This document shows positions 24,894 to 27,587 of a DNA stretch of 64,000 bases, one piece after another. The stretch spans positions 1-64,000 of the forward strand of contig QQXM01000003.1 of NCBI GenBank assembly GCA_014610835.1, read 5' to 3'. Numbering within the stretch: position 1 is the stretch's first letter; the number at the start of each line of letters is the position of its first letter. The DNA is from Erysipelotrichaceae bacterium 7770_A6. Lineage in GTDB: Bacteria; Bacillota_I; Bacilli_A; Erysipelotrichales; Erysipelotrichaceae. The translations under genes and the position numbers were made by a program. The notes below the pieces were generated by a model. That model had not been told where the DNA came from and did not search any database. It saw only the letters and a list, made by a program, of their open reading frames with translations.

Positions 24894-26399
<1,506 letters not shown>

Positions 26400-26413
26400 C
26401 TACATCTATTTTA

Positions 26414-26427
26414 TCAAAGCGTTTTCA
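26414..26427 (-). promoter_or_regulatory. cre site of the second GH1 gene
   Basis: TGAAAACGCTTTGA on the minus strand matches TGWAANCGNTNWCA except one position and abuts a TAAAAT -10-like box. It implies CcpA repression. Confidence 0.75.
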
Positions 26428-26476
26428 AAAAATGTGTAAATTTGCTCGAATAACATGCAAAATACATCAATGAAAT

Positions 26477-26672
26477 GAAAAAATACCAGACGCCCATCTG
26501 GTATTGATTCTTCTTTTCGCATGATTATGTGTTTGAGGAGGACACATCTATGCTATCTTATCCGGTTCATTATGCCATTTTTACGTTTGCCCTTAACGTA
26601 AATGCCGGATGTTATCACCAGCCATCGTAAAGAAGTGTTTTATTAGGAAAGAGTGATGGTTAGCTCTAACTA
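26477..26672 (-). ncRNA. candidate small RNA with anti-Shine-Dalgarno hairpin loop
   Basis: The stretch between two minus-strand genes is a self-contained unit of about 195 bases: its own promoter upstream (26679-26707), no long frame, and an intrinsic terminator at the end. The terminator pairs ATACCAGA with TCTGGTAT and runs into TTTTTT at 26477-26482. Inside are a TTACGTT/AACGTAA hairpin (26581-26601), an enclosing ATCCGG/CCGGAT pair (26560-26610), and an ATGTGT/ACACAT stem (26527-26547). The 9-base loop of that last stem reads CCTCCTCAA on this strand, so it would expose an anti-Shine-Dalgarno sequence. C-rich loops of this kind are used by Gram-positive sRNAs such as RsaE and FsrA to block ribosome sites. 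A cis-leader is less likely because the terminator precedes the next gene's own promoter. Confidence 0.6.
26550..26630 (+). CDS. alternative: 26-codon frame on the opposite strand
   Basis: GAGGAGG (26535-26541) lies 8 bases before ATG on the plus strand. The frame reads MLSYPVHYAIFTFALNVNAG and ends CYHQPS. It is antisense to the candidate small RNA; its ribosome site is exactly the complement of the sRNA loop. I see no convincing plus-strand promoter. I list it because the spacing is good, but prefer the sRNA reading. Confidence 0.2.
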   Translation: MLSYPVHYAIFTFALNVNAGCYHQPS

Positions 26673-26707
26673 ACTATTATGTTAGCAGACACTAACTCAT
26701 ATGTCAA
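26659..26707 (-). promoter_or_regulatory. sRNA promoter with GTTAG/CTAAC operator array
   Basis: TTGACA (26702-26707) and TAACAT (26679-26684) are separated by 17 bases. GTTAGCAGACACTAAC (26681-26696) covers the spacer and -10 box, and GTTAGCTCTAAC (26659-26670) covers the likely start site. Both are inverted repeats of GTTAG/CTAAC. TTAG half-sites of this kind recall DtxR/IdeR/MntR-family metal-dependent repressors; the regulator is an inference. Confidence 0.65.
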
Positions 26708-26747: not shown

Positions 26748-27587
26748 TTATATAATCTCAAAATATTGTAAAGCTTTTTTTATCCCATCACATTCAATAC
26801 GTGCAGTAATATAATCTGCCTGTTCTTTCAACTCTTCCGCAGCATTTCCCATTGCAATTCCATACTGGCACACTTCAAACATACTTGCGTCATTCATAGA
26901 ATCTCCAAAGGCATATGTCTGTTTTTTATCACATCCAAGCAACTCAATCACTTTTTTACATGCATGTCCTTTTGTGATGCCTTTCATTGTAATTTCTCCA
27001 GTTGTTGCACCACCTCTACCATAAGATGCAGTTGTAGAAACATATTCCAATCGATCATCTTTATGTTTCAGCCACTCTTTTTCAATTTCATCAGAAGCAA
27101 AGCTAACATCACTTTCAAGAATTGCTTGTCCCTGATAAGCATTTAGAGGCTGCATATGAAATACACTCAACAATTGTTCCACAGATACATCTGAATGCAT
27201 TGCTGATTTCTTCACGCTCTCTATCATTTCATCATATTGATTTGGACTCGCAAAAAATTCATCAATCGTACTCATCATGATTTCACCATGAAATTCATCC
27301 ATTACCTGATGTACAAATGCCTGCACCAATTCATCCGTTATAGGTGTTAAGATTGGATCTTCACCTTCCAGAAGAATTCCAGCACCATCAGAAAAGATAT
27401 ATCCATCAAGCCCTAGATTACGATACTCTTGCAATCCTCCAAGATTTCTTCCAGAAGATATCAAACAACGATATCCATTTTTCTGTGCCTTATGAATTGC
27501 TTCTAAACAAGAAGAAGATGGCATAATTTCTCCATGTTCGCTATCCACTAAAGTTCCATCGATATCAAAAAACAAACAACCACTCAT
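26748..27587 (-). CDS. Cof-type HAD phosphatase
   Basis: The 279-aa enzyme shows FFDIDGTLVDS (motif I), LISSGRN (motif II), the lysine in MKGITKGHACK and FGDSMNDASMF (motifs III and IV), with a large C2B-type cap. It should hydrolyse small phosphates such as sugar phosphates or nucleotides. It overlaps the next upstream HAD gene by 4 bases. It is the last gene of the operon that also holds a two-domain histidine phosphatase. Confidence 0.88.
   Translation of the reverse strand: MSGCLFFDIDGTLVDSEHGEIMPSSSCLEAIHKAQKNGYRCLISSGRNLGGLQEYRNLGLDGYIFSDGAGILLEGEDPILTPITDELVQAFVHQVMDEFHGEIMMSTIDEFFASPNQYDEMIESVKKSAMHSDVSVEQLLSVFHMQPLNAYQGQAILESDVSFASDEIEKEWLKHKDDRLEYVSTTASYGRGGATTGEITMKGITKGHACKKVIELLGCDKKQTYAFGDSMNDASMFEVCQYGIAMGNAAEELKEQADYITARIECDGIKKALQYFEII

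Follow-up and report, generated by a model that had tools for sequence, protein, structure and literature searches.

Iron-sparing small RNAs (sRNAs) have evolved repeatedly from unrelated origins; examples are RyhB, PrrF, FsrA, IsrR and MrsI. In Staphylococcus, the iron-sparing IsrR is controlled by Fur, uses three C-rich regions that pair with the Shine-Dalgarno (SD) sequence and start region of its targets, and is conserved among staphylococci (PMC9410917). FsrA of Bacillus, an 84-nt RNA under Fur control and aided by FbpABC, spares iron through an unpaired C-rich region that pairs with ribosome sites (PMC12871923), and the iron-sparing MrsI of Mycobacterium tuberculosis, an actinobacterial RNA of 106 nt with a 6-nt seed, has in its promoter a site for the DtxR-family repressor IdeR (PMC8628891). 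RsaC of Staphylococcus aureus, which belongs to a manganese system, is listed as cognate to the DtxR-family regulator MntR in a 2022 review whose table holds zero sRNAs for iron-type DtxR regulators (PMC9294342), to which MrsI/IdeR in mycobacteria is likely an exception. In RoxS/RsaE, C-rich unpaired motifs block ribosome sites in Firmicutes, and the literature consulted ties these RNAs to nitric oxide and redox, not iron.

The locus described here lies in a window of 64,000 nucleotides, the whole stretch of DNA analysed, from Erysipelotrichaceae bacterium 7770_A6. Sequence comparison points to an undescribed sRNA family, carried by this bacterium and 19 relatives of its genus, which is apparently on when iron is short and seems to block the translation of iron proteins; our literature search found no prior sRNA work on gut or rumen Erysipelotrichaceae. 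Like IsrR (PMC9410917), the RNA has hairpins H1 to H3 and a terminator, three unpaired stretches that lie within loops or next to them, a pair of putative repressor boxes over its promoter, and predicted targets that encode iron and Fe-S proteins. The H1 and H2 stems of IsrR covary little and its promoter has Fur boxes (PMC9410917), whereas the stems here covary strongly, and IsrR-type Fur boxes were not found at the promoter, which carries an operator of the form GTTAG-N6-CTAAC. The motifs also differ from those of IsrR, compared here by description, in being C/U-rich (CUCUUUCC, ACUCCUU, GUCCUCCUC) and in the addition of GGGCA loops. With FsrA the RNA shares the predicted iron-sparing role and SD pairing, with MrsI (compared by its description in a review) the predicted iron-sparing role and a promoter site putatively bound by a DtxR-family repressor, with RsaC (compared by Rfam scan) a probable link to that repressor family, and with RoxS/RsaE unpaired motifs predicted to block ribosome sites. 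No family among the Rfam covariance models matched the sRNA, whether that of the window or those of four relatives, and the FsrA and RsaE/RoxS models in particular showed no similarity in either. Since none of IsrR, FsrA and MrsI is a demonstrated relative, the RNA is best called their analogue.

The minus-strand gene and its relatives

Positions 26477-26707 of the minus strand hold a complete small-RNA gene with a promoter, two operators, three hairpins and an intrinsic terminator; the promoter, two inverted repeats, hairpin and terminator of the first-pass annotation were each found where it had placed them. Both promoter hexamers were recognized by a promoter scan, which in the AT-rich region around the sRNA returned fewer consensus matches than expected from shuffles. 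The −35 hexamer TTGACA (26702-26707) is identical in 17/20 members, and after a 17-nt spacer follows the −10 hexamer TAACAT (26679-26684), which is preceded by TG and was also identified by comparison of the members. Transcription would start near 26672. A terminator scan located the intrinsic terminator AATACCAGATGGGCGTCTGGTATT TTTTC (26477-26505), whose stem (26505-26482) is followed by TTTTTT, so that the predicted transcript, with its 5′ end taken from the −10 box and its 3′ end from the terminator, is about 196 nt long (26477-26672). This predicted transcript is kept in 20 genomes, and the gene is single-copy in the genome of the window. Compared across members, and from sequence alone, the gene has the features of a separate small transcript, one that is served by a promoter and a terminator of its own and lacks a conserved open reading frame (ORF).

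The first hairpin, H1 (26622-26659), is closed by the stem CCATC (26659-26655)/GATGG (26626-26622), in which 5/5 pairs show compensatory change across the 20 members. Its loop of 23 nt holds two unpaired motifs: CTCTTTCC (26646-26653), which most members keep despite their varying stems, and the anti-SD-like ACTTCTTT (26629-26636), which reads ACTCCTTT in most relatives. H2 (26560-26610) consists of an inner hairpin and an outer stem, ATCCGG (26610-26605)/CCGGAT (26565-26560), with compensatory change in 6/6 outer pairs. H3 (26519-26553), which also covaries, has outer GCAT/ATGC and inner ATGTGT/ACACAT stems, the latter forming a hairpin at 26547-26527. Its loop presents the anti-SD motif GTCCTCCTC (26535-26543), the complement of which marks the predicted targets, and the loop singled out by the first reading, CCTCCTCAA (26541-26533), lies within this hairpin. 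TCCTCCT of the H3 loop was found in 20/20 members and is the longest invariant run in a 12-member alignment.

In the Infernal alignment of the 20 members, 15/19 pairs showed two-sided compensatory change, and 90% of alignment cells were paired vs 22-47% after sliding the partner, counts that lean toward the structure used for the alignment. The arms of H1 and H3 were therefore also taken by their distance from the loop motifs, without an alignment, which gives an arm-swap test free of this leaning; for both hairpins cognate arms paired better than permuted arms, with 0/5000 shuffles exceeding them (16 clusters). The stems vary freely while the loops CUCUUUCC and ACUCCUU (both H1) and GUCCUCCUC (H3) are kept. 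By itself, the folding energy of the single sequence was mildly better than that of shuffles (z = −2.1), weak evidence, and the case for the sRNA therefore rests on the comparison of relatives.

Because the sequence is too diverged, blastn recovered one full homologue in the genus (L002), and plain DNA search of the genus and family otherwise gave operator-only matches. A covariance model (R1), built from equal-length aligned pieces of the window sequence and L002 with the operator and promoter deliberately omitted, found further members in the family. The rebuilt models R2 and R3 were run on 316 genomes of the order and 70 of the genus. These searches placed the sRNA in 20/70 genus genomes, the last round adding none, and yielded no convincing sRNA outside the genus across the family or the 316 order genomes. 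Weak matches outside the genus (L012, L015, L017, L019, L106, L107, L109, L111-L115) had no operator and several fell plainly inside or beside genes; two within it (L018, L110) had no operator either. L118 and L119 were set aside as weak outliers by their E values (0.02-0.04 vs 2e-7 for the next best). A specific DNA pattern searched over 84,980 named species genomes matched ten Erysipelotrichaceae metagenome-assembled genomes (MAGs), named as Solobacterium sp. and uncultured Erysipelotrichaceae and mostly from rumen or gut, plus two chance matches in Eubacterium (L027) and Nomurabacteria (L031).

A gene for a HAD-family phosphatase (26748-27587, minus strand) lies directly upstream of the sRNA and is kept as its neighbour in 11/20 members, which supports their common descent. 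Chance origin of the unit is excluded, since 20 species keep it and the operators, which lay outside the search models, are present in 20/20. The stretch is conserved in relatives as a minus-strand RNA together with its operator repeats, as the first-pass annotation required, and comparative sequence analysis confirms it as a genuine conserved non-coding RNA gene.

Predicted target mRNAs

Candidate targets were drawn from pattern searches and sampled genome stretches. A search of the 20 carrier genomes for TGAGGAGGAC-N1-9-ATG, built on the extended H3-loop complement, placed this pattern ahead of 25 ORFs with 60 codons or more, apart from the sRNA's own antisense image. By Pfam, 10/25 encode iron proteins or Fe-S assembly proteins vs 0/40 controls with strong SD sites (Fisher P = 1.8e-5). 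The controls, whose ribosome sites read AGGAGG, were sampled over 300 kb of a single genome, the complete carrier; the iron class was assigned by us from Pfam, and orthologues are not independent. Counted by distinct family, the comparison was 8/21 vs 0/38 (P = 9e-5), a slightly generous figure, since the eight were counted before an OYE-type oxidoreductase (L149), in which we did not find the cluster motif, was taken out of the iron class. The ten are rubrerythrin (two genomes, the second, L137, near-identical to L125), SufU (two), a 4Fe-4S aldo/keto reductase (two), a Fer4_20 protein (two), an iron-containing alcohol dehydrogenase (Fe-ADH) and an IlvD/Edd dehydratase; in an eleventh candidate (L124) the cysteines are spaced in the manner typical of 4Fe-4S proteins. 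Target prediction with the loop as seed, as the first-pass annotation proposed, thus showed its extended complement to be enriched at the start sites of iron-protein genes.

Within the genome of the window itself, AGGAGGAC sites precede the genes for rubrerythrin and pyruvate:ferredoxin oxidoreductase (PFOR). Two iron proteins among about eight genes with such sites are suggestive but fall short of significance, and by predicted pairing energy these two genes cannot be told apart from rpsK. The earlier idea that genes of the window could be targets is weaker: only six ORFs of at least 80 codons have GGAGG before ATG, none an obvious iron protein, and as main targets they are rejected, better candidates (rubrerythrin, PFOR) lying elsewhere in the genome.

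Operator and proposed repressor and mechanism

Operator 1, GTTAGTGTCTGCTAAC (26681-26696, minus strand), overlaps the −10 box, and operator 2, GTTAGTTAGAGCTAAC (26659-26674, minus strand), the predicted start site. The GTTAG-N6-CTAAC operator lies across the promoter in 20/20 members, though it was absent from the search models. In five of them the first operator sits on the −35 rather than the −10 box, a shift that leaves the operator in contact with the promoter. Eight carrier genomes were scanned for the operator pattern, one mismatch being allowed. In that of the window it occurs at 14 sites vs 32 for the reversed control and thus shows no genome-wide excess; support for the operator therefore comes from where the sites are placed. 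They precede feoA, a feoA-feoB fusion, a flavodoxin-ferredoxin gene, DUF3793 and a methyltransferase gene in this genome, and in relatives another feoA, ABC exporters, ATC_hydrolase and (in two of them) ZnuA-type metal-binding lipoproteins; in a different genus a double operator of this type lies on feoAB. Sequence comparison establishes in this way that the operator over the sRNA promoter also stands before iron genes.

Several further sites were recorded. Double GTTAG-N6-CTAAC operators are carried by two genes for DUF3793, L005 and L052 (of which L052 diverges from a gene with a beta-lactamase fold), and on sequence grounds DUF3793 seems to belong to the family's iron regulon. An operator in another genus (L006 1501-1516) lies between the genes for galactose mutarotase and pyruvate:ferredoxin oxidoreductase. 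In the complete carrier genome (L087 1385-1926) an operator precedes a Fur/PerR-type regulator gene that adjoins rubrerythrin, a predicted sRNA target.

DtxR-family proteins (PF02742 above cut-off) were present in 5/5 genomes tested, and no Fur-family match was found in the genome of the window (98% complete). The latter encodes two DtxR-family proteins; the gene for the second (L085, G000:C150) adjoins an ABC exporter gene, and similar exporters are preceded by GTTAG-N6-CTAAC operators in relatives (L033, L072). The core of the first-pass reading, a metal-regulated sRNA with SD-blocking loops, is supported in silico by the conserved minus-strand RNA, the conserved operators and a plus-strand frame that is not conserved. 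Its DtxR/MntR-type repressor is a weaker part of that reading: we infer that a DtxR type is likely. The metal is likely iron, since the other genes of the operator and the predicted targets are iron-linked.

From these comparisons we infer the expression of the sRNA, its repressor and metal, and a translational block as the outcome. When iron is plentiful, a metal-dependent repressor, most probably a DtxR-family protein that answers to iron, would occupy both GTTAG-N6-CTAAC operators at the −10 box and start site and keep the gene off; as iron falls, the repressor would leave and the RNA of about 196 nt would be made. Three pyrimidine-rich loops (CUCUUUCC and ACUYCUUU in H1, GUCCUCCUC in H3) would imitate the anti-SD sequence of the ribosome and pair with extended purine-rich ribosome sites, so that translation of selected mRNAs would stop. 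These mRNAs would mostly encode iron-using proteins (rubrerythrin, PFOR, SufU, Fe-ADH and 4Fe-4S oxidoreductases), whereby scarce iron may be left for essential uses. A trans-acting, iron-repressed, SD-blocking, iron-sparing sRNA is the best reading of the locus, and we hold it to be probable.

An unlikely variant keeps the same RNA and anti-SD mechanism, has a manganese-sensing, MntR-like repressor, and has the RNA adjust the balance of Mn and Fe in the way of RsaC under MntR. Such a repressor would fit the two DtxR-family proteins of the window's genome, both short and of MntR length, which score best against MntR models (below the NCBIfam equivalog cut-offs) and of which the one set against solved structures comes closest to MntR; it would also fit the operators before ZnuA-type lipoproteins. 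It fits poorly with operators before feoA and feoAB in several genomes and with predicted targets that are iron proteins, and the aligned protein has Cys at a position that is Cys in DtxR but Glu in B. subtilis MntR.

GGGCA loops, flanking genes and the plus strand

The inner loop of H2 carries the motif GGGCA (26588-26592, minus strand), which most relatives repeat in their terminator loop; it is present in 20/20 members, usually in both places, vs 2/167 other terminator-like hairpins, and does not match ribosome sites. The RNA might, rather doubtfully, be a new bipartite riboregulator, in which the anti-SD loops are joined by a GGGCA module (H2 and terminator) as a separate device, for example an RNA-chaperone docking site or a second seed, and in which the H1 loop AUCACACUCCUUU mimics the 3′ end of 16S rRNA (AUCACCUCCUUU), so that the RNA would compete with the 30S subunit for the same mRNAs instead of only covering single sites. 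The universal presence and usual duplication of the motif could also mean that the RNA, iron-regulated as proposed, acts mainly by protein binding through the repeated GGGCA loops, the C/U-rich loops being secondary; we think this quite improbable, given that no invariant run is longer than the anti-SD loop and that the extended complement of this loop marks iron-protein genes.

Downstream of the sRNA lies a gene for a family-1-like glycosidase (24894-26381, minus strand), which follows it in 5/20 members with the terminator in between. The arrangement allows the RNA to be read as a cis-acting leader or attenuator of this gene instead of a trans-acting sRNA, a very improbable reading: most members have no glycosidase gene in the examined flank, the operator belongs to the iron type, the loops that are conserved have anti-SD sequences, and we saw no alternative fold of an antiterminator kind. 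A further argument against it is a separate site resembling those of catabolite repression, TGAAAACGCTTTGA (within 26405-26430, minus strand), which adjoins the glycosidase start between it and the sRNA terminator and suggests that the glycosidase gene is under its own sugar control. In the complete carrier genome an ordinary TPP riboswitch (Rfam RF00059, L009 1747-1835) closely follows the sRNA.

No reading frame is conserved on either strand across the 20 members, nor was a conserved sense ORF with a ribosome site found; a dual-function sense ORF is thereby ruled out. The 26-codon frame with a GAGGAGG site noted in the first reading (26535-26623, plus strand) is the antisense image of H3, is not conserved and stands outside the system. 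That the plus strand encodes this peptide and the minus-strand features are incidental is scarcely credible: although GAGGAGG-N7-ATG in the window has similar layouts in several relatives, in 4/20 relatives no start codon occurs within 24 nt, the 2-33-residue peptides are unrelated and share no sequence, a scan found no plus-strand promoter there, and the operator, promoter and terminator are all on the minus strand.

If the iron-sparing reading is true, the RNA would be a further independent iron-sparing sRNA, in anaerobic gut and rumen Erysipelotrichaceae. Its 20 diverged sequences, with clean covariation and short predicted sites, would then offer a natural experiment on target choice by SD-mimicking sRNAs.
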